From NCBI GenBank assembly GCA_020437385.1, contig JAGQWL010000015.1:1-37579 (forward strand): a DNA stretch of 37,579 nucleotides, in the 5' to 3' direction. The stretch is from Bacteroidota bacterium. GTDB lineage: Bacteria > Bacteroidota > Rhodothermia > Rhodothermales > JABDKH01. The stretch's first letter is position 1. Each line of letters begins with the position of its first letter. A model generated the notes under the pieces. It worked only from the letters and a program-made list of their open reading frames with translations. It had not been told where the DNA came from and ran no database searches. The translations under genes and the position numbers were made by a program. Shown here piece by piece: positions 2,315 to 31,845 of the stretch.

Positions 2315-2360
2315 GAATCGTCTCCGTGACACCTGCCGAACATCTTTTCCCGCTCAGCCG

Positions 2361-4472
2361 ATGATTGACTCGCTTGACGACCTGCGAAGCGCTCGCATGG
2401 TCTATCGAAATGGTGAACTTTTTAATCCGCCGGCGCTTACCAATTTCGTTGGCTCGCTGCAGGCGGCCTATTGTGTGACGGGCGTCCAGCACCTCACGTT
2501 TCCCCCGTTTTCCCACGGCGATGCCGTTCTGGGCGGCCTGACCGTCAACAATGTTTGCATTCGCACGTGTGGACTGCCGATTTCCTACGTATGGAGACCG
2601 GACCGGATCACCCGATCGGTTGATGTTGGTGCGCTCGAGATCAAGAGCACCACGGTGATGGGCGTGATGTCGCAGAGTTGCGCCGTCAGGATCGAGATAG
2701 AGAATACGGCTGACGAAAGTGTCGACGTCAACGTTCGGCTGCAGGTCGGTACCGGTGTTACGAAGAGCAGCACCGGCTGGAAAACTCCGTATTCGCCAAA
2801 GGAGGGAGGTCGCATTTCTGTAACCCCGTGGGAGGGGACGCCCCCCGCCGAATCGCTTGTCGAGAACCGGGTGACGCCTCTTGAGAGCGGTGATGGGTTG
2901 CTTCTTGCCTCAAGCCTCTCCGAGGCGTTCGCGTTGCAGGGGACAAGTACGCCGCCCGACCGCATCGACCGGTCGTTTCTGGATTTTTCCTTTGCGTTGA
3001 GTCCAGGAGAGAAGAGGCGGCTCCACTACTTTGTGGGCATCGATTCAGACGTTGACGCTCTTCAGCGGCAATTTGCTGAGTGGAAAGAAGCGCCTGATCG
3101 GTGCATCGCTGCCGCTGAGGCCGACTGGGTTGAGGAGATCCGCTCCGTCTTTGAACCGGGAAACAAACGCTACTCTGGCCATCTGCCCCGGCTTCGAACC
3201 TCGAATCGCGATCTCGCACGAATTTACCTTAACAGCATCCTCGGTGTTGTCTACCACAAGCGGCTAACTTCTCATTCGGCCTATGGTCGCACGTACGTTA
3301 CGCTCATGCCGCGATACTGGGTTACGACCAGTTTCATAAATGACTGGTCGATGAGTGCGTGGTTGCTTGCCATGCTGGATCCGGAGTGCCTTCGGGATCA
3401 CATTGAGATGTGGCTCAGGCGGGATCTTTACAGCCACTTCGGCACCGAGTACGTATCAGGCGACAATGCCGGGAACTGGTACTCCTGCAATGACTTCGCC
3501 ATGCTTCGTTTGATCTCCGCCTACGTTCGGGTGACGGGCGACCGGCGGTGGCTACGCAGCAAAGTGGGCGGGCAGTCGATTCTCGATCATTGTGTTTCCC
3601 TTGCAATGCACTATCGAGACCTGGACAAAGGTAGCGGGCTGGCTGACTATGGGGACCGCAACAGTTTGCTGGAAGCAGTGGGCAGTTACACGAACGAGGT
3701 CGCGTCCCTGAATGCGGCCAATGTCTGGAATCTTCGCGAAGTTGCGCGAATGCTGGAGTCGGAATCGCGCGTCGCCGAGGCGGAGTCCATGAAGACTGAG
3801 GCCGACAAACTAGCAGTCGCAGTCAACAAGCTCTATCGCGAGGGCACTGGCTACTTTGCGGTTCGCCGCCCTGATGGAGAAGAGGTGCCGGTTCGGCACG
3901 CGTGGGACTTTGTTCATGTGTCGAACTTCATGGCCCGCGACCTGCCGAGCAAACAGGTGGAAGAGATGATGGCGTTCTTCACGGCTGAGCTTCTTTCGCC
4001 GTCCTGGATGGCCGCCTTGTCTCCGCTTGATGAGGATATCGACTTCTCAGTTCGCCCGGACCACGAGTGGAACGGATCGTGGCCCGGCTGGGTAGCGCTT
4101 GCTGCCTGCTCACTCGTTGTGCATGGTCGACTCGAGTTGCTCGAGCAATGGCTGCCTGGTCTGGCCCGGTCCGCAAATCAAGGTCCGTTCTCGCAGGCGC
4201 ACTTTGTTGAATCGTATGCAAGGCCCATTGAAGGCGGAGCACGCAAGGCTCCAACAGAATGGCCTTTCATAACAGACTGGGCGACCGTCTGCGTTGGTGG
4301 CTTCTTCGAACTGGTCTTGCTCGCACTGTTTGGAGTGGACGCAGGGTACGAGGCGATCGAGGCGAGGCCACGTATCGCCGCGATCGACGCCGACGCGCGT
4401 CTGGAGGGTATCCGCGCAAGCGGTCGAACCGTGGACATCGGCGCGGACGGCCGGATTCAGGCACGCGAATGA
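2361..4472 (+). CDS. Six-hairpin (alpha/alpha)6-barrel glycosidase-like protein
   Basis: About 703 residues from the ATG at 2361 (MIDSLDDLRSARMVY). The open frame extends upstream to 2133, but that part overlaps the preceding gene and has no protein-like character. There is no signal peptide, so it is predicted cytoplasmic. The N-terminal ~270 residues look like a beta-sandwich domain. From about residue 290 there is helical sequence with aromatic and acidic motifs typical of six-hairpin glycosidases (WVTTSFINDWSMSAW, LADYGDRNSLLE, HEWNGSWPGW, then a short C-terminal beta domain). By family knowledge this fold is shared by GH15, GH37, GH63, GH94 and GH116-type enzymes; I cannot assign the family or name the catalytic acids. 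Its stop overlaps the methyltransferase start by 4 bp (ATGA), which implies translational coupling. The substrate is probably an imported oligosaccharide, which is an inference. Confidence 0.7.
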   Translation: MIDSLDDLRSARMVYRNGELFNPPALTNFVGSLQAAYCVTGVQHLTFPPFSHGDAVLGGLTVNNVCIRTCGLPISYVWRPDRITRSVDVGALEIKSTTVMGVMSQSCAVRIEIENTADESVDVNVRLQVGTGVTKSSTGWKTPYSPKEGGRISVTPWEGTPPAESLVENRVTPLESGDGLLLASSLSEAFALQGTSTPPDRIDRSFLDFSFALSPGEKRRLHYFVGIDSDVDALQRQFAEWKEAPDRCIAAAEADWVEEIRSVFEPGNKRYSGHLPRLRTSNRDLARIYLNSILGVVYHKRLTSHSAYGRTYVTLMPRYWVTTSFINDWSMSAWLLAMLDPECLRDHIEMWLRRDLYSHFGTEYVSGDNAGNWYSCNDFAMLRLISAYVRVTGDRRWLRSKVGGQSILDHCVSLAMHYRDLDKGSGLADYGDRNSLLEAVGSYTNEVASLNAANVWNLREVARMLESESRVAEAESMKTEADKLAVAVNKLYREGTGYFAVRRPDGEEVPVRHAWDFVHVSNFMARDLPSKQVEEMMAFFTAELLSPSWMAALSPLDEDIDFSVRPDHEWNGSWPGWVALAACSLVVHGRLELLEQWLPGLARSANQGPFSQAHFVESYARPIEGGARKAPTEWPFITDWATVCVGGFFELVLLALFGVDAGYEAIEARPRIAAIDADARLEGIRASGRTVDIGADGRIQARE

Positions 4473-5308
4473 TCGATCTGTCGACGACCGAACCGTGGGA
4501 CACTGTCGCGTCCGGCTTCGATGAATTCCTGCGGCCCGCTTTCGCGTCTTACGCCAGCCATGCGATCAACCTGTCGGGCTTAGTAGGCGGTGACCGGGTC
4601 CTTGACATTGCGACTGGACCGGGTACGCTCGCGCTCCAGGTTGCGTCCAGCGCGTCGTTTGTGTCGGCCCTCGACTTCTCACCGCTGATGCTTGAGAGGC
4701 TTCGGCGGAATCTTCAAGATGCGGCAGTAGGCAATGTCGAAGTTGTTCTCGGCGACGCCCAGGCTCTTCCATTCGCGGACTGCTCGTTCGACTACGCCTT
4801 CTCGATGTTCGGGCTGATGTTCTGTCCGGATCGTGCGGCAGCGTTTCGGGAAATGAGGCGCGTGTTACGGCCAGGAGGAACGGGTGTTGTAACCAGTTGG
4901 ACAAAGCGAACACAGATTCCGCTGATGGACCTGATCGCCAGGGTGGTTTCGGCCCGCAATCCGCTTGTGCGTGATGGCAGCGGCGAGTCCAACGTTCCGA
5001 CGCTTCCGCTGGAGAACCCGAATGAGCTCAGGCGTGAAATGATCGAAGGCGGTTTCCGGGATGTATCAGTCAGTCAGGCCTCGTTCGAGTTCAGCTATCC
5101 AGATGTCGCTACCTATTGGAAAGCGAATCTCGTATGCAGCGCGCCGCTTTCGGTGGTCAAGCGTGCGATCCTCGGGGAGTCATCGCTCGGGCAGGCGGCC
5201 TGGCAGGCGTTTGTTGCCGAGGTCGAGTCAGATCTCGTCGCTGAATTGGGGGCAAGTCCCATTCGCTACCGCTGGTCGGCGAACTTCGCCCGGGCCGAGG
5301 CCTCTTGA
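4469..5308 (+). CDS. Class I SAM-dependent methyltransferase
   Basis: 279 residues starting MIDLSTTEPWDTVASGF. The ATG at 4469 overlaps the upstream stop (ATGA); longer in-frame extensions run back to 4259 inside the previous gene and are rejected. Motif I of the Rossmann methyltransferase fold is clear near residue 46 (VLDIATGPGTLALQ), followed by a motif II-like acidic position (SALDFSPLMLERLR), a motif of the form VVLGDAQALPFADCSFD and a post-motif strand MRRVLRPGGTGVVTSW. This is the arrangement of UbiE/Methyltransf_11-type enzymes that methylate small molecules. The acceptor cannot be told from sequence. The gene ends 36 bp from the end of the convergent PKS gene. It could tailor that product, but its coupling to the glycosidase gene argues equally for a role with that operon. 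Confidence 0.8.
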   Translation: MIDLSTTEPWDTVASGFDEFLRPAFASYASHAINLSGLVGGDRVLDIATGPGTLALQVASSASFVSALDFSPLMLERLRRNLQDAAVGNVEVVLGDAQALPFADCSFDYAFSMFGLMFCPDRAAAFREMRRVLRPGGTGVVTSWTKRTQIPLMDLIARVVSARNPLVRDGSGESNVPTLPLENPNELRREMIEGGFRDVSVSQASFEFSYPDVATYWKANLVCSAPLSVVKRAILGESSLGQAAWQAFVAEVESDLVAELGASPIRYRWSANFARAEAS

Positions 5309-5344
5309 GAGGAGTCAGTTTCGAAGGCGACGGCCGACGGCCGA
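5309..5344. other. Short convergent intergenic gap
   Basis: Only 36 bp separate the methyltransferase and PKS stop codons. A small inverted repeat, CCTC-TTGA-GAGG, spans the methyltransferase stop codon, and ACGGCCG is directly repeated just after it. Neither is followed by a T-run on either strand, so I do not call an intrinsic terminator. Confidence 0.4.
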
Positions 5345-8300
5345 CTAGCGCACGCCGGCGTCATCCGACATTTCCTCGGCTCGAGACGCCATCCGATCCG
5401 ACTTCAACCCGGCACCTCGGCCGGCACCGTCCCCGGTGCTGCCGACCATCCCGGTCAGGCGATCCACCGCTTCGTTGAAATGTTCGACAAGCTTGATCAC
5501 ATGTGGTTCACGGAACAGCGTGTCGTGATCACCGGGTGACGTGATCACCTCAAGGTGGGGGATCCACTGGGCCCAGCCCATATCAGGGCCAACATGGCTG
5601 AACTCGGCTTCACGCGTCTCCGCCGTAATCAGGATGACCTTTCCGTCGTACTGCGAGGGTTGATAGCGATCCTGGGCCGCGTGGTAGGCCGAGATCATTT
5701 TAAACTCGCGAAGCTCGATCGGAAGGGGGCGACCAAACTTCGTCAGGAAGTTTGCATACGTCTTCCGAAGGCGGTTTCGTTCGAAGCGATAGCGTCCGAG
5801 GGCATATCGGCCGAGGTACCGCACTGGGCTCTGGCGAAAGTGGGACAGGTGGCGCGATACCTTGCTCTCGCCCGGTCTCTGCGGCGCCTTGGGGAGCGTC
5901 GGACAAAACGTGTCAAGCATCACCACGGCCCGAACTTGTTTGTTTCTCGCGCGGAGTCTCTTCGCCATCTCAAAGGCAACCACGCCGCCTCCGCTGTATC
6001 CGCCGATCAGGTACGGCCCATCGGGATCGTGGCTGACGACGGCGTCCACATAATCTTCTGCCATTTCTTCGATCGTAGCGGCAGGCTCCTGGATGCCGTC
6101 GACGCCACGCGCCTGCAATCCGAAAAAGGGCTGGTCAGGTCCAAGAAGACGCGAGAGTGAAGTGAAGTTGAGGACGTTTCCGCCTGCGCCGTGGACGCAA
6201 TAGAACGGCATTCTCGTACCGCTTTCTCGGATGGGCACGAGCGGTGTCCATCCGGAGCGGCGCGGGGCCAATGCATTCCCTTCAACCGATTGACTGCCGT
6301 TGGATGCTTCTGACGGACCTTCAGACGAATGCTGTTGCGGCTCCGGCAGGCCGAGTTCCGAGCGGATGAGTGCGGCACACTTCTCGATGGTCGGGGCCTG
6401 AAAGAGGGTTGCCAACGACAGGTCGACACCATGATCCCTCCGGATCCTGGTGAACAGACGAACGGCTATTAGCGAGTGACCGCCGAGGTCGAAGAAGTCA
6501 TCCTTGATTCCGATTTCGGTCACGCCCAATAGCGAAGCCCAGAGATCAACGAGAGATCGCTCGATTGCGTCCCGCGGCCCGATGCGCTTCTCTGCGGACA
6601 CGGTCGGGCTCGACTCGCTGGCCGGCCTTTCATTCCTTGTAGACCGCTCGACTGCGGATTGCACGTCCGACCAGCGAATCGACGAGACAATCGGAGCGGG
6701 TGTATCGAGCGACAAACATCGCTCAAGGGCGATGAGGCCTTCTTCGGGTTCGATTCCAAATCGCGCACCGAGGTCCAGCAACGACATCTGGCCGAGCGAG
6801 GCTTCTGCATCTCCAAGTGCGCGTGCAACTTCCGCCGCGTCTACTCGCTTCATCGCGAACCCGTCGATCGCCGCCACGACGGTTCCATCCTCGGAGACGA
6901 GTCGGTAGTCGATGGTCACGAAGTCAGGGTGTGCGTGTTCTTCCGTCGCGAGCCGTGCATGAGAGAGGAAGCGGGGGGGCAGCGTCCCGAAGGTTCGGAT
7001 CTCACGGTACGTAATTGGAACGTAGAGGTCTTCGTGGGACTCGTATCCGCTATCAAGCGGCAACGCAAAACCTGTGGCTATGTCCAGAAGCGCGGGATGC
7101 AGACCGAATTCGAGAGTCTCCTTGCGATAACTATCCGGGAGTTCAACAACCGCTTCTGCCCGGCCCGAACCATAGCGCGAGGATTCCAGACAGTGCCAGC
7201 GGGGTCCGAAGTCAAGCCAACGCTCCTGTTTTGATTTTTCGTCAGAGGCCGGTCGACGAAGATCCTGCTCGTAACGGTCCGCGAAATCCTCGTCTGGAGG
7301 CCCTTCAAGTGGCCCTGCCGAAGCAAACGCGTGGTCCACACGAAGCCCATCCTGTTCGGACGTGACGACGACATCGTAGTTTCCATTCCTGGTGCCCGTC
7401 ACCTCAACGCCGACGTTTACAGTCACGCCATCCGGAACGGACAACGTTTCAGCGAACACAAGGTCCGTGATTCGGCAGTTATTGCGTCCGGTTTCCAACT
7501 GGATCGCACTGCGAACCAGTTCGACGATGAGCGTACCGGGCGCAAGCGCCTGTCCCGTCCAGAGGCGGTGCTCATTGACAAACCAGTGGTCGGCCGTGCT
7601 GAGGCGAATTTGATAAATCGAACCGCTGCCCTTACGAAGCACGGAGCTGAAGACGTGGCTGTCCAACGATTCCGCTTCATCCGGCGTCGAGTCAGCGTCG
7701 GGTCGGGACGTCATGCCGAGATTTCGCCACATACCCCAGCGGATTGCGCGAACTGCTGTTACACCATCGCCGACGGACGCAGCAAGCGAATCCATAAAAG
7801 AATTCGCGCTGACATAATCGACCTGGCCGGCTGCCGCAATCACGGCACTCGTCGACGAGAAAAGCTCGACAAATCGCGCACCAGAACTTTTGGCGGCATC
7901 GATGACAGCGAGTGCACCTGCCGTCTTCGGCGCGAGAACGGATCGTGCAGCTCCGGCTGTCTTCGCGAGTGCGGGGCCGTCGTCAAGAAGACCGGCGGCG
8001 TGCAGCACGCCGTCAATCTCTCCAAACGTATCCACGATGCCGTTGAACGCTCGTCGAATGGCGTCGCGGTCGGTCACATCGGCTGCGACATAATCAACAT
8101 CAATCGAGCGCGACAGCGCGGCCATTCGCGCCACCTTTTGCTCGACGTCGGCTCCAAGATCGGATTTGTCACGACGAGCGGCCCATACAGATTTGTCGGG
8201 GAGTGGCGTACGACCAACGAGGACAATCCGGGCTCCGTACTTTTGTCCAATCAAATCGGCCAATGCCGTCGAGATGCCGCCTGCCCCACCCGTGATGACA

Positions 8301-11300
8301 TACGTCGCGCCTTTTCGAAATGACGCCGTATCGTGCGCCAATGGTGTCGCACGCTTCTCCACATTCGCAGTCAGATACCTTCCCGAGCGAACGGCAACGG
8401 TCTGCGCGGCGGGACCCCGTTTCAGGAGCGTCACCAGGGCCGCGATTGATTCTTTGGAGCGGTCACCAACGTCCACGTGACTGAATTCCATCGCCGGGAC
8501 CTCCTTGCCAATAACGCCGCAAGGACCCGCCACGAGATTCCCAGCCGGGTTGGAGACGGGATCCTTCGCCGACGTCGATAGCGATGATTCGCTCAGCGCA
8601 TAGACGCGTATGCTCTCGAGGTCAACCTCGACGGCCGCCTGAGCGAGCCACAAAAGCGAAAAGAAGTTGCGATCGATCGCGGCGTCCAACGAGTGCGAAT
8701 CGTCGGTAGGCCAGAGATTCAGGATGTCGGTCGGCTGCTGCCCGATCGATACCAGATGACTGAGGAGCTTGAAGTAGTCCTCCTTTTCTCCCGGGCGAAT
8801 GCGAGATTCCATGTCACCGAATGCCGGTTCCTCAGCCTGCCGCACGACGTGGACCGATGTCCCAGCGCCGCTGAGCGGACTGTCAACCGGTTCCTGGAGT
8901 GACTCGAGCAGCCCATCGGGTGCGGCGTTCGCGAACACCAGCCAGCGCCGGGCGCCATAGACCCTTTCGACCGGGGGGGTCATCGGCCGCCATTGAATCT
9001 CGTGGATCCAGTCATCGACATTCGAACTCTTCACAGGTTCGTGAGGAGCTGCCGCATCGTTATCGTCCGGCGCGGGCGAAGACTGTCCCTTGCCGGGTTC
9101 GATCCAGTAGCGGCTTCTTTCGAAAGGGTACGTTGGCAGCGGAATTCTGCGAGAGTATTCGTCGTTAAGCAGGTTGCCCCATTCCGGTGTCGCGCCGGCT
9201 CCCCAGATTGCACCGACAGCCTCGAAGAAGACGGCGTCGTCATCGGCGACATCCTTGGGGTGTCGCATCGTTGTGACGGCCGCCGGCGAGTCCTGCGTGC
9301 GATGCATATCTGCAAGCGTAGCAAGTGTTCGGCCTGGACCGACTTCGATGAGGATCGGATTCGCTGATTCCAGCAACGTGGCAATGCCGTCGCTGAAGCG
9401 TACCGTTTCGCGGATGTGTCGCGTCCAGTATTCGGGTGACATCGCTTCATCCGCCGTGATCCACGTGCCGGTAACGTTCGAGATGAACGGAATACCCGGT
9501 TCCGAGAACTGGATGTTGGAAACAAACTCGTGAAAGGCGTCAAGGATCGACTCGACCATTGCCGAGTGGGCGGCAACATCAATTCGGACTCGCTGGAAGT
9601 CGATGTCTGCATCGGTCAACGATTGCTCGAGGCGCTCGATCGATGCAACCGGGCCTGCAACGACGTTCAGCGTCGGTGCATTCTGGGCAGCGATACTCAG
9701 TTCTTCTCCGGTGTATCGGAGCACGGTCTCGCGATCTGCAAATACGCTCAGCATCGCGCCCGCATCAAGCGTTTCGAACAGACGTCCACGGGTGTACACG
9801 AGGGAAAGGGCATCTTCCAGCGAGAAGACTCCTGAAAGACAGGCAGCGACATACTCGCCCATGCTGTGACCTGTCATTCCATCCGGACGGATTCCCAGGG
9901 ACATCAGGAGACGGGCCGCGGCGAATTCCACGGAAAAGAGGGCGGGCAGCGACAGGAGGGGTGCCTGAAGGGGCTCAGCCGAATCCGTGTTCGCGTCCGG
10001 AACCAGGATCGGTTTCAGGTCGACGCCGTGCGCCTGCTTCATGTGCGCAATGCAACGGTCAATCGTGTTGCGGTACACCTCGTGTGCGCGGTAGAGTCCG
10101 GCGCCCATCTGCCGATGCTGTGCACCGCCGCCGGCAAACATAAAGATGCGGGTCGGTGAGTCGCCGGCCTTGCGAATACGAGAGCGATCGATGGATGACA
10201 GAGCGTCGATCACCTCATCGATCGTCTTTCCGCTTACCGCAGTACGGAAGTCATACGCTCGCCGGCCACGAGCCATCGTGTAGGCGACGTCGTCAAGATC
10301 GGCTTCCGGATTGGCAACCAGGTGGTCGCGCAGTCTTGCAGCGGCCGCGAGGACAGCCGATTCACTTCGGGCGGACAGCGGCACGAGGACGCGCTTCTGC
10401 GTTTTCGGCTCACGCGTGACGGACGGTGCTTGTTCGAGGATGACGTGCGCGTTCGTGCCGCCGACACCGAGCGAACTGACTCCTGCCCGCCGGATGCCGC
10501 CGGGAGGTGTCCACTTGACCAGTCTGTTGTTGACAAAGAAGGGGGAGTTCTCGATTCCCAGCTTTGGGTTCGGCTCGTTGTAATGGAGCGTTGGGGGAAT
10601 CTCGGCGTGTGAGATGGCGAGAGACGCTTTGATCAAACTCGCGACGCCTGCAGCCGTGTCAAGGTGGCCGATATTGGTCTTGACTGAGCCGAGGGCGCAA
10701 TACCCACGCTTGTCGTTTGCGCTGCCGTATGCCTGGGTCAGCGCGGCCAGTTCGATCGGATCTCCAACGGGTGTTCCGGTTCCGTGCGCTTCGACGTATG
10801 TGACCGACGCCGGATCAACTTCCGCTATTTCAATTGCCTCGGCGATGGCTTGTGCCTGCCCGTCCACGCTGGGGGCGAGATAGCTCACCTTGACCGAGCC
10901 ATCGTTGTTCACAGCCGAGCCACGAACAATTGAATGGATCGTGTCACGGTCGCGAATGGCATCGTCAAGACGCTTCAGGACGACGAGGCCCACGCCGCTG
11001 CCGAAGACGGTACCCTCGGCATCGGCATCGAAGGCTCGACAGTGCCCATCCGGCGAAAGAATCTCGCCGTCCTGGTAGAGGTAGCCTTTCTGCTGATCGA
11101 TCTGGATCGTAACGCCGCCGGCCAACGCCATATCGCACTCTCCGCTGAGCAGGTGCTGAGACGCCAGGTGCACTGCAACGAGTGAGGTGGAGCACGCGGT
11201 CTGAACGTTGATGCTTGGACCCTTGAGGTTAAACAGGTAAGAAGCCCGCGTCGTCAGAAAGTCCTTGTCGTTCCCCGTGTGTCGAACGAGGAACTCGCCG

Positions 11301-11746
11301 ACCGAGTGCATCAGTTCCGGGTTCGTGACGAGATTGTACATCATGTACGCCGTCATCCCGGAGCCCGCGAAGACGCCGATCGAGCCGTCGAACTGGGCCG
11401 GATCGTATCCTGCGTGTTCGAGTGCTTCCCAGCAGCATTCAAGGAAGAAGCGATGCTGGGGGTCCATTATGGCCGCTTCGCGCGGAGAGAACCCGAAAAA
11501 GCCTGCATCGAAATACTCGATGTCGTCGAGTACACCGTTAGCCGGAACGTAATTCGGATCGCGAATCAGCTTCTCCGGGACTCCGTTGCCGCGAAGCTCC
11601 TGCTCCGAAAAGAACCGGATCGATTCGATTCCGTCACGAAGATTCGCCCAGTAATCGTCTACAGACGAGGCACCGGGAAAGCGGCACGCCATGCCAACGA
11701 TGGCGATCTCACTTCCGTTGTAGACGATATCCTTATCCATGTCCAA
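5345..11746 (-). CDS. Type I polyketide synthase module KS-AT-KR-DH-ACP-TE
   Basis: 2133 residues, 10 bp downstream of the NRPS gene. KS about 10-440 has a full triad (Cys185 in TACSTS, His321 in EAHGTGT, His361 in KTNIGH). AT about 535-830 has Ser628 in GHSMGE; its specificity motif reads VAAHS near 724-728, neither the malonyl HAFH nor the methylmalonyl YASH form. The post-AT linker PTYPFERSRYW ends near 881. KR about 1145-1345 has TGGAGGIS, an LDD motif (B-type), Lys1274, Ser1298/Ser1300, Tyr1311 and Asn1315. DH about 1375-1640 lies after the KR, with His1393 and Asp1555 in HPALLD. The carrier about 1722-1800 has Ser1758 in LGGHSL. TE about 1835-2095 has Ser1918 in GYSGGG, Asp1945 and His2074. 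The enzyme should add one malonyl-derived unit to the aminoacyl chain from the NRPS, reduce it, dehydrate it and release it as acid or lactam. Finished by its own TE, it is probably the last module. Confidence 0.93.
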   Translation of the reverse strand: MDMDKDIVYNGSEIAIVGMACRFPGASSVDDYWANLRDGIESIRFFSEQELRGNGVPEKLIRDPNYVPANGVLDDIEYFDAGFFGFSPREAAIMDPQHRFFLECCWEALEHAGYDPAQFDGSIGVFAGSGMTAYMMYNLVTNPELMHSVGEFLVRHTGNDKDFLTTRASYLFNLKGPSINVQTACSTSLVAVHLASQHLLSGECDMALAGGVTIQIDQQKGYLYQDGEILSPDGHCRAFDADAEGTVFGSGVGLVVLKRLDDAIRDRDTIHSIVRGSAVNNDGSVKVSYLAPSVDGQAQAIAEAIEIAEVDPASVTYVEAHGTGTPVGDPIELAALTQAYGSANDKRGYCALGSVKTNIGHLDTAAGVASLIKASLAISHAEIPPTLHYNEPNPKLGIENSPFFVNNRLVKWTPPGGIRRAGVSSLGVGGTNAHVILEQAPSVTREPKTQKRVLVPLSARSESAVLAAAARLRDHLVANPEADLDDVAYTMARGRRAYDFRTAVSGKTIDEVIDALSSIDRSRIRKAGDSPTRIFMFAGGGAQHRQMGAGLYRAHEVYRNTIDRCIAHMKQAHGVDLKPILVPDANTDSAEPLQAPLLSLPALFSVEFAAARLLMSLGIRPDGMTGHSMGEYVAACLSGVFSLEDALSLVYTRGRLFETLDAGAMLSVFADRETVLRYTGEELSIAAQNAPTLNVVAGPVASIERLEQSLTDADIDFQRVRIDVAAHSAMVESILDAFHEFVSNIQFSEPGIPFISNVTGTWITADEAMSPEYWTRHIRETVRFSDGIATLLESANPILIEVGPGRTLATLADMHRTQDSPAAVTTMRHPKDVADDDAVFFEAVGAIWGAGATPEWGNLLNDEYSRRIPLPTYPFERSRYWIEPGKGQSSPAPDDNDAAAPHEPVKSSNVDDWIHEIQWRPMTPPVERVYGARRWLVFANAAPDGLLESLQEPVDSPLSGAGTSVHVVRQAEEPAFGDMESRIRPGEKEDYFKLLSHLVSIGQQPTDILNLWPTDDSHSLDAAIDRNFFSLLWLAQAAVEVDLESIRVYALSESSLSTSAKDPVSNPAGNLVAGPCGVIGKEVPAMEFSHVDVGDRSKESIAALVTLLKRGPAAQTVAVRSGRYLTANVEKRATPLAHDTASFRKGATYVITGGAGGISTALADLIGQKYGARIVLVGRTPLPDKSVWAARRDKSDLGADVEQKVARMAALSRSIDVDYVAADVTDRDAIRRAFNGIVDTFGEIDGVLHAAGLLDDGPALAKTAGAARSVLAPKTAGALAVIDAAKSSGARFVELFSSTSAVIAAAGQVDYVSANSFMDSLAASVGDGVTAVRAIRWGMWRNLGMTSRPDADSTPDEAESLDSHVFSSVLRKGSGSIYQIRLSTADHWFVNEHRLWTGQALAPGTLIVELVRSAIQLETGRNNCRITDLVFAETLSVPDGVTVNVGVEVTGTRNGNYDVVVTSEQDGLRVDHAFASAGPLEGPPDEDFADRYEQDLRRPASDEKSKQERWLDFGPRWHCLESSRYGSGRAEAVVELPDSYRKETLEFGLHPALLDIATGFALPLDSGYESHEDLYVPITYREIRTFGTLPPRFLSHARLATEEHAHPDFVTIDYRLVSEDGTVVAAIDGFAMKRVDAAEVARALGDAEASLGQMSLLDLGARFGIEPEEGLIALERCLSLDTPAPIVSSIRWSDVQSAVERSTRNERPASESSPTVSAEKRIGPRDAIERSLVDLWASLLGVTEIGIKDDFFDLGGHSLIAVRLFTRIRRDHGVDLSLATLFQAPTIEKCAALIRSELGLPEPQQHSSEGPSEASNGSQSVEGNALAPRRSGWTPLVPIRESGTRMPFYCVHGAGGNVLNFTSLSRLLGPDQPFFGLQARGVDGIQEPAATIEEMAEDYVDAVVSHDPDGPYLIGGYSGGGVVAFEMAKRLRARNKQVRAVVMLDTFCPTLPKAPQRPGESKVSRHLSHFRQSPVRYLGRYALGRYRFERNRLRKTYANFLTKFGRPLPIELREFKMISAYHAAQDRYQPSQYDGKVILITAETREAEFSHVGPDMGWAQWIPHLEVITSPGDHDTLFREPHVIKLVEHFNEAVDRLTGMVGSTGDGAGRGAGLKSDRMASRAEEMSDDAGVR

Positions 11747-11756
11747 CGCTTCGTGC

Positions 11757-14700
11757 CTAACGTCCTCTCCGGTTCATGGCAGCCCGTCTTGCCTCTGCCC
11801 TGGATGATCCGCGGGCGACGGCTGAGTTCTCCTCGGATTCGCCGTTTCCGGCCAGATGTGCCGCGAAGGTACGGATCGTCGGATACCTGAAAAGATCGAT
11901 CAGCGAAAGCGTTTGACCAAGTACCTCGCTGAGCCTCGCGTTGACCTGCACAGCAAGGAGGGAGTGTCCACCGATGTCGAAGAAGTTGTCAGTGACTCCA
12001 ACCGAGTCTGCTTCGAGTACGTCCTTCCAAACGCCCGCAATCGTCGTCTCCAGGTCGCTCTCGGGGGCAACGGTCGCTGCCGGTTTCGCTTCCGTGGTTC
12101 TGCTCTTGGGCGTCTGTTTCGCCAACGCATTCCGGTCCAGTTTGCCATTCGGCGTACGGGGGAATGATGCGAGGACGACGAATTGAGACGGAACCATGTA
12201 TGGAGGGAGCTGTCGGTCCAGCCGCTGCCGTGCCGCACTCTGTTCGAACGAGCCGTCCGCCGTTTCGACCACGTACGCTACGATGACCGGGTCCGTAGTT
12301 CGTCGTTCGACGACCACTGCCGTCTCGGCAACGCTATCCAACTGTCGCAGCGCCTTTTCGATTTCGTCCAACTCGATTCTGTAGCCGCGCACTTTGACCT
12401 GATGGTCATTGCGGCCGAGGAACTGAAGCAGTCCGTCCTCGGTGAACCGGCAGAGGTCGCCGGTACGATACATTCTTCCACCACGCGGACTGAACGGATC
12501 TGGTACAAAGCGCTCGTCGGTCAAGTCCGACCGATTCAGGTAGCCGGCTGTAACGCCGTCGCCGCCGATGAAAAGTTCACCCGTGACGCCGGTCGGAACC
12601 GGCGATCCGTCGAGACCGAGGACATAGACGGTGTTATTGGCCAGTGGACGGCCGATGGGCATCGAGCGTTCCGAGCCGGTCACCTCATAGGATGTCGACC
12701 AGACCGTCGTTTCCGTCGGACCATACATGTTCGTAACGGTTCCGGGCGCGAGTTCCTTGATCTGCCGCGCGAGGTCGGTGTCGAGCGCCTCTCCGCCAAC
12801 AAGGAAGTGCTGCAGCCTGCCCAACACTTCGCGGCCTTCCGGATCTGCGACAAGCATTCGAGCCATGGAAGGTGTGCACTGAAGATGTGTAACGCCCTCC
12901 CGGATCGCCAGCTCATACATCGAGATGGCGGATTCGGCTTCCGCCGCCGTTCGACCCACGACAAACGGTGCGGATGAACCGCCGTAGCCGTCCCCGCCCG
13001 TCACTGGCGCCGTGACTGGAGCCGTAGTTACCGGATTGCTTTCCTTCAAGAGGCGCGCAAGTTCGGGAAGGCTGCTCAGTACGAGTTCCGTATCGACGCC
13101 GAAGTCGACAAGACACCCGATTTCATCAACGCCAATCTCTTTCAATCGATCAACGAACGGCGCACACGTTTCCACCGATCCAAACAGACCGCTGGACTCG
13201 AAGTATCGTTCAAACGCGTAGTCCAGAATCGCATCGCGATCACCGTCCGACAAGTGCTCCATCGAGAAGCGGCCTTCGTTCGTCATCGTCATTTCCTTGA
13301 ATGTCGGAAACGTCCATGCCGCCTCTTTGACGAGGTTCATTGCCGTACCCAGGTACGCCTTCATTGCGTCGCGCACAATCTCGCGAACCGAGTCCACCGA
13401 ATCGCCGATGAACGTGTGAAGCATGAGGGTGATCTTGCCGCCCGAAAGCCCCTTCGCCTTCTGCGTATCGCGGTAGAGCGCGATCTTCTCCGCAAGTTCC
13501 TCGACCGACTGCCCAAGCAAATGCGTGAGAACATTGTAGCCGTTCTCGGCACCAAGTCGGAATGTTTCAGGGTTGCCGGCTGCCGTTATCCATACCGGCA
13601 GTTCCTGCTGCACAGGTCGCGGCAGCGTGCGGACGGAGACGTTCTTACCGTCTGCCTTCGGAAACTCAACGGCCTCGCCCCTCCACAAGCGCTGAACGAC
13701 CTCGATCTGCTCGAACATGATCTCCTTGCGTCGCTCCCAGTTCGCCGGCTGCAGAAGGAAGTCGTTGGGCTGCCATCCGGCGGCGAACGAGATGTCCACC
13801 CGGCCCCCTGAAAGGTTGTCAACCATGGCCCATTCTTCGGCCATGCGCACTGGATGGTGCAGCGGCGAGACGAGGCTGCCCGCACGAAGTCTCACGTTAG
13901 ACGAAATCGTTGCGAGAGCGGCGTTTGTGACTGCTGAATTTGGATAGAGCCCTCCGAAAGAGTGGAAATGCCGTTCCGGTGACCAGATGGCCACGAACCC
14001 GTGCTCATCTGCAAAGCGGGTCGACTCAAGCAGCAGGCGATACTGATCTCGCTGTCCATGCAGCTCCGAACTGGAGGCGGCAAAGAAGAAGAGGCTGAAG
14101 TCGATCGGCTGCTCCCGATGCGGGAGCGACGAATCCTCTCGCGTTGGCTTGACCGGGGAACCGAGAACCACCTTGTACCCGCGTGTAAGCGTCCAGAGCA
14201 ACTCCAATACACTGATGTCGAACGACAGGCTGGTCACGGCGAGCCACGTCCCACCGTCAGGTCGAAGCACTTCGTCCATCGCCACAAAAAAGTTGGCGAC
14301 GTTTCGATGCCGAACCATCACGCCCTTCGGCGCGCCGGTCGATCCGGAGGTGTGAATGACATACGCGAGATCGTCTTTGTCGGTCGCCGGTTCTTCATAC
14401 GTGGCCGGCAGATTCCAGTCTACTTCATCGAGGACCAGCGGCTCCCGGCTCTGATCGCTGAAGAGACCCCGGTAGCGGCGCAGACACAGGAGATCGGCAA
14501 CCGCTGCATCCTCCGAAATAAAATGGAGGCGCTCACGCGGAAAATCCGGGTCCAGCGGCACGTAAGCGGCGCCCGTCTTCAGAATGCCCAGCACGCCGAC
14601 GATCAGATGCGACGACCGATCCGAGCAGATGCCGACTCTGTCACCACGCTTGACGCCGCGTTTTCGAAGCAGATGCGACAGCAGCGTGGATCGCCTGTCG

Positions 14701-16460
14701 AGCTCGGAATACGTGAGACGCTCACGTTGTGTGACGATCGCAAGTTCGTCTGGCGCGCGCTCAGCAGCCGTCCTGAACTGACGGTGGATGGATGCGGGTT
14801 CATAGGAAACAGAGGTCCTGTTCCATGTTTCCACGATCTGCTTGTAGGTGTCGCGATCAAGAAGCCCGATGCTGCCAAACTTCTGCTCCGGATTCCGCGC
14901 CGCATACGTGCTGAAGTGACGGAACTGGGACACGAGTCGTGCTCGCGCATCCGTATCCAGTAGATCAGCGCGCATGACAAACCAGATGCGCCCGTCTTTC
15001 GAGACTGTCACAGCGAGAACGGCTGAGCGCGATGGCTGAGCCGCGTCTTCGGCAAATGAAAGCTCTACCGTTTCGAAGGGCTCGGCCTCGCGGAGTCGCG
15101 GATACCGCAGAAGCAGATCGCCTGAATGGCCGGCAAACGTCTGGTAGTGCGAGAGACGCTTCGTGGCCCTGCCGATCAATTCTCCGACGCTCGTTTCAGC
15201 GCTCCCGAAATCAAAGCGTGCCAGCGACGATGCCCGGTATAAACCGGCCATTTCGTCCTCCGGTGGTGAAGCGGCGATCCGTAGGTCCACCCGAGCCTGA
15301 TTACACAGCTTTGCAAGAAAGGCGGCCACGACGGCCGCAGACGAAACGGCCGGCGATACTTTTCGACCAGTCGGTACGTCCGCAGGGAGGAGTTCAACCG
15401 TATCGACGGCAACCTGCCCGGCCGACACCCTGGCCTCTGCATAGGGAACGATTGCTGGTTGCGGGTCAAGTAAGGCACGAACCATCCCGTGGTCGTGACG
15501 AGCGGCAGTCGTATCAATTTGGGCGAGTCGCTCGACATCCGGCACTGCGAACGCTTTTAGCTGATCCCCTGGAAACAGGGCCATCGACAGATCGGCAGCC
15601 TGCGGAACGTCATCGCCAATGCTGTGCAAGCTGCTGAGTCGGACGTCGTTGGAGGACGTTCCGACGACGACTGAATTCTTGTCTACCGACACAACGTGAC
15701 CGGCCTTGCCGGCGGATCCCGCGAGGACCTCAGCCTTTCCAACTGAGACGAAGCCCCCCGGCACTTTCATCTTTGCCGTCGCGACAGGGTTGTCATATGT
15801 ACCAAAATCCAGGCTGCGAACCAGTCGCGCGATCGAATCCGCGTCCTGTTCAAAGTCTATCACGCCGCCATGAGGGGGCCGATGGTACCTGCCAAAATAC
15901 TGGCCTGGGCCTGTTTGTTCGCGCCCGGCAAGACGCCGTTCCTCCAGCATTTCCAACAGTCGGCCGAAAGACGAGATACCGGCTTCGTAGCACTTCGTGT
16001 TGAGCGAAAAGGCCGTCTCGCCATCCGCGACCGAGATTTCCTCTTCAACGAGTACATCCCCTTCGTCAACCGCCGCCTTCATGAGATGCCACGAAACCGC
16101 GTGTCGACTGACCCCGTCTGCAAGGGCCCAGGTCGTTACGTTGAGGCCGGCATAATCCGGCAGGGGGCCGTCGTGAAAATTGATGGCCGCCACCCGAGGA
16201 AGGGATAACGCCTCCTCGGCGATGATACTCAGATTGGTGATACTCAGAAGATAATCGAAAGGGGTTGCCGCCAGGACTAGCGCGTAAGGGACATCCGAGT
16301 CGATAACCTTGAGCGATTGAGACTCGGCCCAATCTCGAATTCGCGGGGCATTCGATACGACTCCCAGGATCTCATGTCCGGCAGACATGATCGATCCCGC
16401 ACACTGAATCAGCAGCGATTCACTGCCGATGAGGTAACAAGAAAATTTGCTGTTTTCCAT
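11757..16460 (-). CDS. NRPS loading module: formyltransferase - partial C - A(Gly, with embedded monooxygenase) - PCP
   Basis: 1567 residues from ATG 16460. Formyltransferase domain about 1-200 has the catalytic trio Asn94, His96 and Asp132 (NFHDGPLPDYAG, VDEGDVL), with its small C-terminal subdomain to about 300. Residues about 340-545 resemble only the C-terminal lobe of a condensation domain, ending in the usual C-A linker (IVETWNRTSVSYEP); no HHxxxDG motif is present. The adenylation domain starts near 555: A3 HTSGSTGAPKGV, A4 SFDIS at 746-750. A luciferase-like flavin monooxygenase (about 785-1140; WSPERHFHSFGG, SFAAGWQPNDF) is inserted, then A5 MYGPTETTVW at 1245, A7 YRTGDL, A8 and A10 Lys1440. 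The ten-residue pocket read by eye is D-I-L-Q-L-G-M-V-W-K, close to known glycine codes. The PCP Ser is 1500 (IGGHSL). It should load glycine, formylate it and possibly oxidise it before transfer to the PKS. Confidence 0.92.
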   Translation of the reverse strand: MENSKFSCYLIGSESLLIQCAGSIMSAGHEILGVVSNAPRIRDWAESQSLKVIDSDVPYALVLAATPFDYLLSITNLSIIAEEALSLPRVAAINFHDGPLPDYAGLNVTTWALADGVSRHAVSWHLMKAAVDEGDVLVEEEISVADGETAFSLNTKCYEAGISSFGRLLEMLEERRLAGREQTGPGQYFGRYHRPPHGGVIDFEQDADSIARLVRSLDFGTYDNPVATAKMKVPGGFVSVGKAEVLAGSAGKAGHVVSVDKNSVVVGTSSNDVRLSSLHSIGDDVPQAADLSMALFPGDQLKAFAVPDVERLAQIDTTAARHDHGMVRALLDPQPAIVPYAEARVSAGQVAVDTVELLPADVPTGRKVSPAVSSAAVVAAFLAKLCNQARVDLRIAASPPEDEMAGLYRASSLARFDFGSAETSVGELIGRATKRLSHYQTFAGHSGDLLLRYPRLREAEPFETVELSFAEDAAQPSRSAVLAVTVSKDGRIWFVMRADLLDTDARARLVSQFRHFSTYAARNPEQKFGSIGLLDRDTYKQIVETWNRTSVSYEPASIHRQFRTAAERAPDELAIVTQRERLTYSELDRRSTLLSHLLRKRGVKRGDRVGICSDRSSHLIVGVLGILKTGAAYVPLDPDFPRERLHFISEDAAVADLLCLRRYRGLFSDQSREPLVLDEVDWNLPATYEEPATDKDDLAYVIHTSGSTGAPKGVMVRHRNVANFFVAMDEVLRPDGGTWLAVTSLSFDISVLELLWTLTRGYKVVLGSPVKPTREDSSLPHREQPIDFSLFFFAASSSELHGQRDQYRLLLESTRFADEHGFVAIWSPERHFHSFGGLYPNSAVTNAALATISSNVRLRAGSLVSPLHHPVRMAEEWAMVDNLSGGRVDISFAAGWQPNDFLLQPANWERRKEIMFEQIEVVQRLWRGEAVEFPKADGKNVSVRTLPRPVQQELPVWITAAGNPETFRLGAENGYNVLTHLLGQSVEELAEKIALYRDTQKAKGLSGGKITLMLHTFIGDSVDSVREIVRDAMKAYLGTAMNLVKEAAWTFPTFKEMTMTNEGRFSMEHLSDGDRDAILDYAFERYFESSGLFGSVETCAPFVDRLKEIGVDEIGCLVDFGVDTELVLSSLPELARLLKESNPVTTAPVTAPVTGGDGYGGSSAPFVVGRTAAEAESAISMYELAIREGVTHLQCTPSMARMLVADPEGREVLGRLQHFLVGGEALDTDLARQIKELAPGTVTNMYGPTETTVWSTSYEVTGSERSMPIGRPLANNTVYVLGLDGSPVPTGVTGELFIGGDGVTAGYLNRSDLTDERFVPDPFSPRGGRMYRTGDLCRFTEDGLLQFLGRNDHQVKVRGYRIELDEIEKALRQLDSVAETAVVVERRTTDPVIVAYVVETADGSFEQSAARQRLDRQLPPYMVPSQFVVLASFPRTPNGKLDRNALAKQTPKSRTTEAKPAATVAPESDLETTIAGVWKDVLEADSVGVTDNFFDIGGHSLLAVQVNARLSEVLGQTLSLIDLFRYPTIRTFAAHLAGNGESEENSAVARGSSRAEARRAAMNRRGR

Positions 16461-16753: not shown

Positions 16754-18985
16754 TTACCGTTTCCGCACGCTCGCAATAATGGTCGCATAGCCATCAATCT
16801 CGAAATGCTCGATACGGATTGTGTGACTGCCCGTGGCACGGAATGGCACCACAGCCGTTCGCGGCGCGTGATAGGTCCAATCGTCGTGGACAAGATCCTG
16901 GTCGATCCAGACACGTACACCATCATCGCTCGTGATCTCGAGATCGTAGTTGCCCGGTGAAAGCCGGACCGTACCCGTCGAGACGGTTGCAAATCGGTCC
17001 GCCCGAACGCCGGCGATCGGGCTTCGATACCACTGATAGGCCAGGGAGTTTGTACTGTCAACGGCGATGGGGTCGCCGGAAACAAGCTGTTCGAACGCAC
17101 TGATTTGCGTTCGCGGGTCAGTTTCGTCATCCCATTCGTAAAACCGAACCGTCCAGCGGATTGGCGCGAAGAAGTAGCGGTACGAAAATCCGACGGCATC
17201 ACCGGCCGGCTTGGGCGTGCCGAACCGATCAGTCGTCGCCGCTCCATGGTACTCGGCATCGATGCGAACGTCGACGGCGGCTGTCGGATCGAGCCAGATC
17301 GTCAGCGTATCGCCAATCGAACCCCCGCTTTCCGACACGGAATCGATTCCCGATGTGTCGAGGATTCTAAAGGTGCCCGGCGGTCCATAGGTCTCAAGAT
17401 GCTGAACTGGAGCGGTTCGACTGGAGCGTGGCCAGAAAACGGGGGATCGGAAGTCGTACGGCCCCCACTCATCGATCATCATGTAGCGACGACCCTGGGG
17501 TAGCGTCGACGGGATGACGGGCCGATCAAGGCGATTCCAACGGCGCGGCGCATAGGAGGTCCAGTCAGACGTCGCTGGATCAAGCCGCTCGGTCGTGTTT
17601 CCCGATCCGGCAGGAAGTCCGACAACCGGAATTGAATCCGAAGGCGCCAGCCCGGAAAATGAATTCAGATCAAACCGTCCGGTACTCCCGCGCAGCACGA
17701 GGCTGTCGACGACGCCTTCAAACAGATTTTGGGTGACGACGACTTCGTCCGTGTCCGTTATTTCAAGTGGGCGTGGCACACTCTCAAATGTGTTTCCCGC
17801 GATGCGGAAGTCGCGGCTATCGACGTCGCGGGCCTGGGCATAGCCCCAATCGGCCGGCTGTGACGACCGTTCCCAAAGTCGAATCCCGATGTCGCCATGG
17901 GTGAACCGGTTGCCGGTAATCGTTATTTCCTGCCCGTGCTCGATTGCAATATGCTCTCCATTGTCTGCGAACGTATTACCGACGACCCGGGTGTCGAACG
18001 AATAGCCGCCCCAGATCCCGTGCCAGCAACCTCGAATTGTATTGCCGACTACCGTATTGCGGCTGAAGGTGATTTCGATTCCATTGGTGGGAGCAAATGA
18101 AAAATCGTTCCCATAGATCAGGTTGTCGTTGCAGCCTCCAGCACCCGAATCCATAGTCGATTGTCCGGCCCAGAGAAACAGTCCATCTCCCGAATGGGTC
18201 GCCGAGTTGGATGCGATGACGTTTCTGCTTGACTGTTCATAAAGAAGAATCGCGGCAGAGTCCTGCCCACGAAAGTAAAAGCCCTCGCTGTGGCCCCGAA
18301 CGTTCCAGTCAAGCCGATTGTGTTGAATGACATTCTCGGAACTGCGGTACATACCAATTCCGATGCCTGAGTTGAATGTTATGTCGTTGGCGACAACGAT
18401 CGCGTGATTGACGTCAGTGAGCATCAGTCCGTTCTGGCCTCCCGTGACCGTAACGCTGTCAATCTGGATGTTGTCCGAATCCCGAATGTAGACCGCGGCT
18501 CCGTATCGCATCCATTCATCGTGCTCGTTCTGGTGGTAGCTCATCCAGTCGTCTATGTGCTCACGCTCGATCGTACTCTTCAACTTCTGCCGATAGTTGT
18601 AACTGAGGTCGCTCTTTGAGACATGAAGTCCGTCGCTCTGCGTGGCCCAGATTCCGATTCGGTAGCCACGCACCACGGCATTAACGATTGTCACGTTTGA
18701 ACCAGATATCCGGATGCCGGTACCGGAAAAGGTGTCGGGTTGTCCGGGAGTCGCAGTGCCAATAAGGGTAGCTCCACCGAAGTCGACCGTTATGTCTGAA
18801 CCGCGAACTACTATCGCGCCCATACTGTCTGATTCGATGTAGTACGTGTCAGGAGCGATTCGTACGGATTCCGAAATAACGAGACCTCGTTCCAGTCGGA
18901 TTGGCACCTGGGCAAGTGTTTGAGACGCATGCACAAACACGCAGAGCAGGAGCGCTGTATACAGCTGGGGAGTGGTGTTCCGCAT
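16754..18985 (-). CDS. Exported right-handed parallel beta-helix protein with C-terminal PA14-like domain
   Basis: About 743 residues from the ATG near 18985, chosen because it starts a Sec signal peptide (MRNTTPQLYTALLLCVFV, cleavage after LAQ). The longer frame back to 19210 overlaps the upstream gene. Residues about 70-430 carry many PbH1-type repeats with an N-x-(I/V)-x-x-N-x pattern (NVTIVNAVVRGYRIGIW, NVIQHNRLDWN, NLIYGNDFSF, NTVVGNTIRG), typical of NosD-like and carbohydrate-active beta-helices. The last ~120 residues match a PA14-like carbohydrate-binding beta-barrel (YDLEITSDDGVRVWIDQ). It is probably a secreted polysaccharide-binding or -cleaving protein; no catalytic residues can be assigned. 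The start lies 8 bp from the stop of the upstream membrane-protein gene, so the two are probably co-translated. Confidence 0.8.
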   Translation of the reverse strand: MRNTTPQLYTALLLCVFVHASQTLAQVPIRLERGLVISESVRIAPDTYYIESDSMGAIVVRGSDITVDFGGATLIGTATPGQPDTFSGTGIRISGSNVTIVNAVVRGYRIGIWATQSDGLHVSKSDLSYNYRQKLKSTIEREHIDDWMSYHQNEHDEWMRYGAAVYIRDSDNIQIDSVTVTGGQNGLMLTDVNHAIVVANDITFNSGIGIGMYRSSENVIQHNRLDWNVRGHSEGFYFRGQDSAAILLYEQSSRNVIASNSATHSGDGLFLWAGQSTMDSGAGGCNDNLIYGNDFSFAPTNGIEITFSRNTVVGNTIRGCWHGIWGGYSFDTRVVGNTFADNGEHIAIEHGQEITITGNRFTHGDIGIRLWERSSQPADWGYAQARDVDSRDFRIAGNTFESVPRPLEITDTDEVVVTQNLFEGVVDSLVLRGSTGRFDLNSFSGLAPSDSIPVVGLPAGSGNTTERLDPATSDWTSYAPRRWNRLDRPVIPSTLPQGRRYMMIDEWGPYDFRSPVFWPRSSRTAPVQHLETYGPPGTFRILDTSGIDSVSESGGSIGDTLTIWLDPTAAVDVRIDAEYHGAATTDRFGTPKPAGDAVGFSYRYFFAPIRWTVRFYEWDDETDPRTQISAFEQLVSGDPIAVDSTNSLAYQWYRSPIAGVRADRFATVSTGTVRLSPGNYDLEITSDDGVRVWIDQDLVHDDWTYHAPRTAVVPFRATGSHTIRIEHFEIDGYATIIASVRKR

Positions 18986-18993
18986 CGTTGCCC

Positions 18994-19410
18994 TCAGTCC
19001 GACGGATTTCTTGAGCTCCGCGTCGTTCGACGTTCCAACAGTTCGCGGATCGCAATCGAAGTCAGCAGTCCCGCGCACGCGATCGCAACGGCCGCAGTCC
19101 GGGCCTCTAGGTGGGCCCGACAGTAGAAAAGCAAGATCAGGAAGACCGACAACCAGACGCCGAAGCGTCCCAGTAGATTGCTGGCCGGCAGCCGGCGTCG
19201 CGCAATCCACAGGTTTGCGAAAGTCGTCAGCGCAGCGAAGAGGAAGAAGAAATTCTGCCAGAAGAAGCCGCGAGCCGGATCGTTGACCCGGTACGGGTCG
19301 AAGAGAGCGCTGTTACGCAGCGTCTCAAAAACGCCAAGATAAACCGCAACCTGTAGCAGTGACCAACCGACTGCGCTTGCCAGTGACCTCAGAGCAGATT
19401 GCTTCGCCAT
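18994..19410 (-). CDS. Small integral membrane protein, unknown function
   Basis: 138 residues starting MAKQSALRSLASAVGW. Four hydrophobic segments are visible: about 13-30 (WSLLQVAVYLGVF), 49-68 (FFWQNFFFLFAALTTFANLW), 83-98 (FGVWLSVFLILLFYC) and 104-122 (AAVAIACAGLLTSIAI). The tail is basic, and Arg-rich loops suggest the usual positive-inside topology. I do not recognise a family. It lies 24 bp from the LVIVD-repeat gene and immediately upstream of the beta-helix gene in the same direction. That position suggests a role in export or anchoring of the beta-helix product, which is inference from context only. Confidence 0.65.
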   Translation of the reverse strand: MAKQSALRSLASAVGWSLLQVAVYLGVFETLRNSALFDPYRVNDPARGFFWQNFFFLFAALTTFANLWIARRRLPASNLLGRFGVWLSVFLILLFYCRAHLEARTAAVAIACAGLLTSIAIRELLERRTTRSSRNPSD

Positions 19411-22580: not shown

Positions 22581-22582
22581 TG

Positions 22583-28110: not shown

Positions 28111-28122
28111 ACGAAGGAAAAA

Positions 28123-29880: not shown

Positions 29881-29909
29881 TACCATCATCACCCTTTTCG
29901 AGGCGAATC

Positions 29910-30572: not shown

Positions 30573-30626
30573 TAATCGGCGTCGCTCCACGTCTGAAACG
30601 ATCTACTCCATCTAACCAACAGTAGA

Positions 30627-31826: not shown

Positions 31827-31845
31827 GCCGACTACGACAGACTAG

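Follow-up and report, generated by a model that had tools for sequence, protein, structure and literature searches.

A putative formylating, glycine-loading module with a flavin monooxygenase inside its adenylation domain is paired with a polyketide synthase in several bacterial phyla

The window, a Bacteroidota contig of 37,579 nucleotides analyzed at its whole length, encodes a nonribosomal peptide synthetase (NRPS) that appears to be a formylating starter module for glycine, with a luciferase-like flavin monooxygenase built into its adenylation (A) domain. Directly downstream lies a gene for a polyketide synthase (PKS). Judging by their motifs, the two genes form a real and intact unit, and this unit is conserved: the NRPS module is one of a family found in several phyla rather than a single oddity. 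According to the reading that we favor, and hold with evenly balanced confidence, glycine is loaded, N-formylated, and oxidized at C-alpha before a single malonate extension. The product of the pair could thus be an unusual oxidized glycine starter.

Domain architecture of the NRPS and PKS genes

Table 1. Features of the NRPS/PKS unit and of the neighboring methyltransferase gene (positions in the window)
Feature	Position	Strand	Remarks
Methyltransferase gene	4259..5308	+	Convergent to PKS; Pfam Methyltransf_25
PKS gene, KS-AT-KR-DH-ACP-TE	5345..11746	-	2133 aa; 10 bp downstream of NRPS gene
Thioesterase (TE)	5492..6205	-	GGYSGGG, GDHDT
Acyl carrier protein (ACP)	6365..6556	-	GGHSLIA
Dehydratase (DH)	6827..7630	-	Placed after KR; His in EHRLWTGQALAPG, Asp in HPALLD
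Ketoreductase (KR)	7724..8308	-	LDD present; catalytic YxxxN
Acyltransferase (AT)	9314..10147	-	GHSMGEY, AAHS
Ketosynthase (KS)	10427..11710	-	TACSTS, HGTGT, NIGH
NRPS gene, FT - C-domain C-lobe - A (N part) - luciferase-like monooxygenase - A (C part) - PCP	11757..16460	-	1567 aa; ATG start
Peptidyl carrier protein (PCP)	11853..12044	-	Pfam PP-binding; GGHSLL
A domain, C-terminal part	12111..13040	-	CTPSMA; A5 MYGPTE (12711-12728); A10 lysine in TPNGKLD
Loop signature AAWTFPTFK, aa 1047-1055	13296..13322	-	Typical of FT-type oxygenases
Inserted luciferase-like flavin monooxygenase, aa 785-1140	13041..14108	-	TIGR04020; 6ket likeness
A domain, N-terminal part	14109..14795	-	With A3 and A4; SFDIS at 14211-14225
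Condensation-domain C-terminal lobe only, aa 310-552	14805..15533	-	Profile matches to McyB, Txo1
Formyltransferase domain (FT), N-terminal, aa 1-300	15561..16460	-	Pfam Formyl_trans_N/C; fold like Fmt and ArnA

A preliminary description of this DNA had placed a complete luciferase-like monooxygenase at residues 785 to 1140, between motifs A4 and A5. This holds, the residues corresponding exactly to nucleotides 13041 to 14108 and the flanking motifs lying at aa 746 (A4, SFDIS) and aa 1245 (A5, MYGPTE). Pfam Bac_luciferase covers aa 787 to 1113 (E value, 1.5e-47) and parts AMP-binding into two stretches, while the NCBIfam model TIGR04020 (MupA/Atu3671-type luciferase-like monooxygenase; curated cut-off, 244.45 bits) matches aa 788 to 1137 with 479 bits, spanning model positions 1 to 340 of 341. 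Structure prediction, which the same description had named as a check for residues 555 to 1450, gave an AlphaFold model of aa 541 to 1550 with a mean pLDDT of 82.7. Its oxygenase part resembles the OX domain of PuwE (PDB 6ket; TM score of 0.91 on the target, 45% identity) and the remainder resembles NRPS A and A-PCP structures. An assembly artifact is excluded, since the fusion recurs in 30 FT-type and 17 other aligned modules.

The A domain is preceded by a formyltransferase with the motifs NFHDGPLP (aa 94 to 101) and VDEGDV (aa 131 to 136). Its active-site N-x-H (NFH, aa 94 to 96) and D (aa 132) are intact, and they are kept in nearly all relatives. A model of aa 1 to 561 (pLDDT, 87.4; pTM, 0.84) matches methionyl-tRNA formyltransferase and ArnA. 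The stretch between the FT and A domains, aa 310 to 552, has no Pfam match; a profile of this region built from 17 relatives matches residues 199 to 479 of the McyB chain and residues 235 to 470 of Txo1, stretches that in both belong to the condensation-domain C-lobe. Because Pfam shows an N-terminal formyltransferase and no condensation domain, and because aa 310 to 552 amount to a C-lobe only, we read the NRPS as a loading module. The loading position had been put forward in the preliminary description, and the domains found ahead of the A domain bear it out; the FT, which points to a formylating starter module, was missing from that account. The NRPS open reading frame ends just past the PCP, and a TE is found only as the last domain of the PKS, which is encoded separately.

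In a Chloroflexota locus (L113, 6003 to 7076 and 7633 to 12276), the FT is a separate neighboring gene, and the NRPS matches PF00668 at positions 188 to 456 only. That both this NRPS and that of the window have a C-lobe alone suggests that the FT stands in for a lost condensation N-lobe. The arrangement in L113 is a possible intermediate on the way to the fused form. The NRPS of an Aquimonas locus (L021, 7607 to 12301) has G instead of N in the N-x-H motif of its FT and is accompanied by a different PKS, and thus this FT may work differently.

The pocket letters DILQLGMVW of the window A domain, together with the A10 lysine (DILQLGMVWK), make up a glycine code, supporting the glycine specificity that had been proposed from the same letters. 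The code is of the same type as that of three modules, L082, L083, and L087, which we took as MtaG-like by their architecture (C-A(Ox)-PCP-TE of 1787 to 1792 aa behind a KS-AT gene) and not by name. A glycine code is present in all 47 aligned oxygenase-in-A modules, whatever precedes or follows the module; the oxygenase is therefore tied to the glycine of its own module. In the PKS, inspection of the domain motifs found catalytic residues in place. Other members lack the LDD motif that its KR has.

Distribution and phylogeny of the FT-type modules

Relatives were drawn from GTDB genomes, the family of the window's own genome, myxobacteria, Alphaproteobacteria, Chloroflexota, and Cyanobacteria. 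Strong matches, not all of FT type, were present in 7 of 385 alphaproteobacterial, 3 of 301 Chloroflexota, and 7 of 291 cyanobacterial genomes sampled. The pair of FT-A(oxygenase)-PCP and PKS occurs in the window's own family (G004, and G003 and G005 with contig ends) as well as in Chloroflexota, Planctomycetota, Alphaproteobacteria, and a genome reached as an Archangium relative (G358). A complete KS-AT-KR-DH-ACP-TE gene accompanies the NRPS at 18 of the 21 noncyanobacterial FT loci. The exceptions are L047, which is cut by a contig end, L021 with its other PKS, and L045, whose contig is short and whose gene is damaged. Cyanobacteria, represented by 10 loci in the final set, carry the FT-type NRPS but no type I PKS, from which it follows that the oxidized glycine need not always be extended. 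The NRPS gene of L045 (Rhodobacteraceae, 4843 to 8256) lacks parts of the oxygenase and of the A domain (from A5 on) and is probably decayed or misassembled. In four myxobacterial and Comamonas modules (L039, L041, L042, and L046), the oxygenase lies within a degenerate A domain that follows KS-AT-PCP, and there it probably acts on a polyketide chain.

In a phylogeny of 47 A-oxygenase-PCP modules, the FT type requires three state changes, compared with a mean of 14.1 after shuffling; the FT-type oxygenases thus form nearly one clade with a near-single origin. The C-...-TE modules of MtaG type make up one group. The window oxygenase is 60 to 61% identical to its FT-type relatives and 53 to 55% identical to the MtaG-like L082, L087, and L086. 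A loop, AAW.FP.FK, marks the FT type: its W is present in 30 of 30 FT-type oxygenases versus 1 of 16 others, and its later F in 28 of the 30. Two modules inside the FT group, L025 and L026, have condensation domains and yet retain traces of the loop, which suggests that the FT has been replaced there. The AAWTFPTFK loop, missing from MtaG-like oxygenases, offers a handle for genome mining.

In the mostly open-access literature searched, we found no account of the two-gene FT-NRPS/PKS pair and nothing pertinent on TIGR04020 or on loading modules that combine a formyltransferase with an oxygenase; the product seems to be unreported as well, but an earlier description is possible. Several hosts are in culture, namely, Sagittula marina, Alexandriicola marinus, Methylorubrum salsuginis, Dolichospermum, and Sphingobium arseniciresistens, making the pair testable.

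Proposed chemistry of the pair

The A domain would load glycine onto the PCP, as its code suggests. The FT, in place of a condensation N-lobe, would N-formylate the glycyl-PCP from formyl-tetrahydrofolate, a step to which the conserved catalytic residues and the example of LgrA from linear gramicidin synthesis point. By analogy with MtaG/MelG and SolF, the oxygenase, with reduced FMN and O2, could then hydroxylate C-alpha of the tethered N-formylglycine. The formyl group would take the role that the peptide has in MtaG-type modules, and the oxygenase would again meet an N-acyl-glycyl thioester. Modules for which the upstream region is available have a complete or partial condensation domain or else a formyltransferase in front, as expected if the oxygenase needs such a substrate. 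A rule for oxygenase-in-glycine-A modules may follow, those seen being paired with an N-acylating partner of one kind or the other.

The FT makes N-formylglycyl the most likely substrate and so alters the chemistry from that first envisaged. As N-formylation turns the glycine into an amide, the hydroxylated product would be a carbinolamide instead of a free hemiaminal, which is unstable. A free alpha-hydroxyglycine would lose ammonia, and the gain of a carbinolamide would explain why FT and oxygenase occur together. The preliminary description had left an alpha-hydroxyglycyl or imine-type starter open. An oxidized glycyl starter is supported; the free imine or free alpha-hydroxyglycine is, given the FT, less likely than N-formyl-alpha-hydroxyglycyl. 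If the carbinolamide survives and passes to the KS, the PKS would add one malonyl unit, reduce it, and dehydrate it, and the TE would release or transfer the product. The formal product unit would be 4-formamido-4-hydroxybut-2-enoyl with the formamide kept and 4-oxobut-2-enoyl with it lost.

In favor of this reading we count the domains and their active sites, the glycine code, the near-single clade of FT-type oxygenases with its loop, the PKS partner, and, as precedents, MtaG/MelG, SolF, and Sky39 (PMC10204066, PMC11342130, PMC9321520). Several points count against it. Acyclic alpha-hydroxyglycine tends to fall apart, which favors a glyoxylyl starter; the literature searched gave no precedent for a KS accepting N-formyl-alpha-hydroxyglycyl; the cyanobacterial members have no type I PKS; and no Sfp-type phosphopantetheinyl transferase was found in the window's own genome (94% complete), though the pair needs one. 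A weak 86-aa AcpS-like match (contig C189, 19329 to 19565) was all that turned up in this genome. A phosphopantetheinyl transferase gene adjoins the pair in G004, L107, and (by sequence inspection) L019.

Genomic context and a possible link to surface polysaccharides

It is possible, if well short of probable, that the module supplies surface polysaccharides with an acyl group, formyl-(hydroxy)glycyl or an extended form of it, which a hexapeptide acyltransferase or the TE would move onto an amino sugar. This could hold jointly with formylation and C-alpha oxidation as proposed above. Of 31 FT-type loci, 19 have polysaccharide genes nearby, compared with 2 of the 18 other loci with an oxygenase in the A domain (Fisher P = 0.0008, with loci that are related and not independent, some of which also supplied query proteins). 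In Cyanobacteria, a gene order is kept in which a sugar transferase (Bac_transf), a hexapeptide acyltransferase, and the NRPS are often followed by ACP, KASIII, and DegT. Six Rhodobacterales-type loci, of the Alphaproteobacteria, have a GT2 gene between the PKS and NRPS genes, most of them with Wzz, Wzx, or further glycosyltransferases nearby. Against this, the 37.6-kb contig of the window has none of these genes, be it glycosyltransferase, sugar transferase, Wzx, or Wzz, none were seen in the DNA examined of L017, L018, L032, L019, and G358, and the acyl transfer is a prediction. For the window, the absence of these genes makes the link a lead and not a conclusion. A wider version, in which FT-A(oxygenase)-PCP, with or without a PKS, is a dedicated multiphylum route to an oxidized N-formylglycine-derived acyl group for decorating surface polysaccharides, and the window member has moved out of such a locus, seems doubtful to us. 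The link, if real, would mean that NRPS/PKS machinery makes sugar decorations instead of free metabolites.

As for the other genes of the window, the methyltransferase gene showed no conserved link to the pair in the first set of loci. An open reading frame without a Pfam match (2133 to 4472, plus strand) overlaps its listed start; the actual start of the methyltransferase probably lies closer to 4460. The minus-strand gene immediately upstream of the NRPS gene (16754 to 19210) encodes a NosD-like protein with a parallel beta-helix and a PA14 domain, possibly carbohydrate binding. Farther along are a FIST-domain protein beside a PAS-PAS histidine kinase, likely a sensor pair (20829 to 23722, minus strand), and four adjacent, mutually similar HEAT-repeat genes (28111 to 32937, plus strand), the last of which matches Pfam HEAT_2.

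Alternative fates of the glycyl unit

In myxothiazol and melithiazol biosynthesis, the insert hydroxylates the glycyl C-alpha, the carbinolamide breaks, and the TE hydrolyzes the glyoxylyl-PCP (PMC10204066, PMC11342130). The preliminary description had held that amide release does not fit a loading module; this exclusion is less firm, since an MtaG-like breakdown in the starter module would expel formamide and leave a glyoxylyl-PCP able to prime the PKS. Glyoxylyl would then be the true starter and the formyl group a traceless activator, with KS, KR, DH, and TE leading to 4-oxobut-2-enoate. The shared insertion site and glycine code, the glyoxylyl-PCP left by hydroxylation in MtaG/MelG modules, and the instability and rarity of acyclic alpha-hydroxyglycine all favor this course. 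We nonetheless consider it rather unlikely: in the MtaG-like L082, L083, and L087 the TE directly follows the PCP, whereas here a KS module follows; SolF retains alpha-hydroxyglycine in midchain; and the FT-type oxygenases have a loop that the MtaG-like ones lack.

Oxidation at nitrogen, giving an N-formyl-N-hydroxyglycyl or oxime-type starter as in lobatamide-type loading modules, is improbable. Oximes offer known cases of an oxidized glycine as a PKS starter, and an FT beside an oxygenase recalls formyl-hydroxamate siderophores. The lobatamide oxygenase, however, is of another flavoprotein class, siderophore uptake genes are absent from the window, and the characterized glycine-module oxygenases of the present kind act on C-alpha, for which reason we keep N-hydroxylation as a rival only. 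Least probable is a dead or structural insert in a module making formylglycyl only. In its favor, 5 of 74 otherwise invariant positions differ in the window oxygenase. Against it, the other 69, all invariant among 16 non-FT oxygenases, are kept, as are all invariant columns of alignment A1 (though by construction), and identity to FT-type relatives is 60 to 61%.

Further candidates were rejected. As the main reading, an oxazole starter of the conglobatin/oxazolomycin type conflicts with the KR and DH, since these would eliminate the ketone on which ring closure depends; nor was a gene of the OzmP/CongE type seen next to the pair. A fabrubactin-type siderophore finds no siderophore genes in the window. 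A supposed glyoxylate carboligase beside L109, which would have favored glyoxylate release, is an acetolactate-synthase-like TPP enzyme. A butenolide product was weighed as well; judging by its LDD motif, the KR would lead to an E alkene, not easily lactonized, and other members lack this motif.

Comparison with known systems

MtaG and MelG share with the window NRPS a glycine A domain with a flavin monooxygenase between A4 and A5, and the insertion site noted in the preliminary description agrees with the published placement of the myxothiazol/melithiazol domain between a4 and a5 (PMC10204066). They are C-A(Ox)-PCP-TE modules at the end of a chain, from which an amide is released; the window has FT and a C-lobe ahead of the A domain and KS-AT-KR-DH-ACP-TE after it, with neither a complete upstream condensation domain nor a TE immediately behind the PCP.

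SolF module 4 (solanimycin B) is likewise a glycine module with a flavin monooxygenase, and its alpha-hydroxyglycine is kept as the chain continues; it differs in being an internal module without a formyltransferase and in having the insert between a8 and a9 (PMC10204066). The PuwE OX domain, the closest solved structure to the window oxygenase, acts on the fatty-acyl/polyketide chain in puwainaphycin synthesis and not inside a glycine A domain. Corallorazine-like clusters (38 clusters) have a monooxygenase within a glycine A domain (A2), but in the second module of a lipodipeptide NRPS, with no formyltransferase reported there (PMC11342130).

The other likeness is to the formylating loaders LgrA (linear gramicidin), OzmO, CongA, and that of rhizopodin, in which an F domain is joined to the N terminus of an A-PCP starter; the substrate is glycine in OzmO and CongA (PMC4504003). 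None of these modules is described as having an oxygenase within its A domain, and their products have oxazoles or formyl caps. The window NRPS has both of their marks, an N-terminal FT with N-x-H and D and a first module without a competent condensation domain. LgrA is not known to have a condensation C-lobe. The unit joins two known kinds, the MtaG-type oxygenase-in-A module and the formylating loading module, in a manner not met with in the literature searched.
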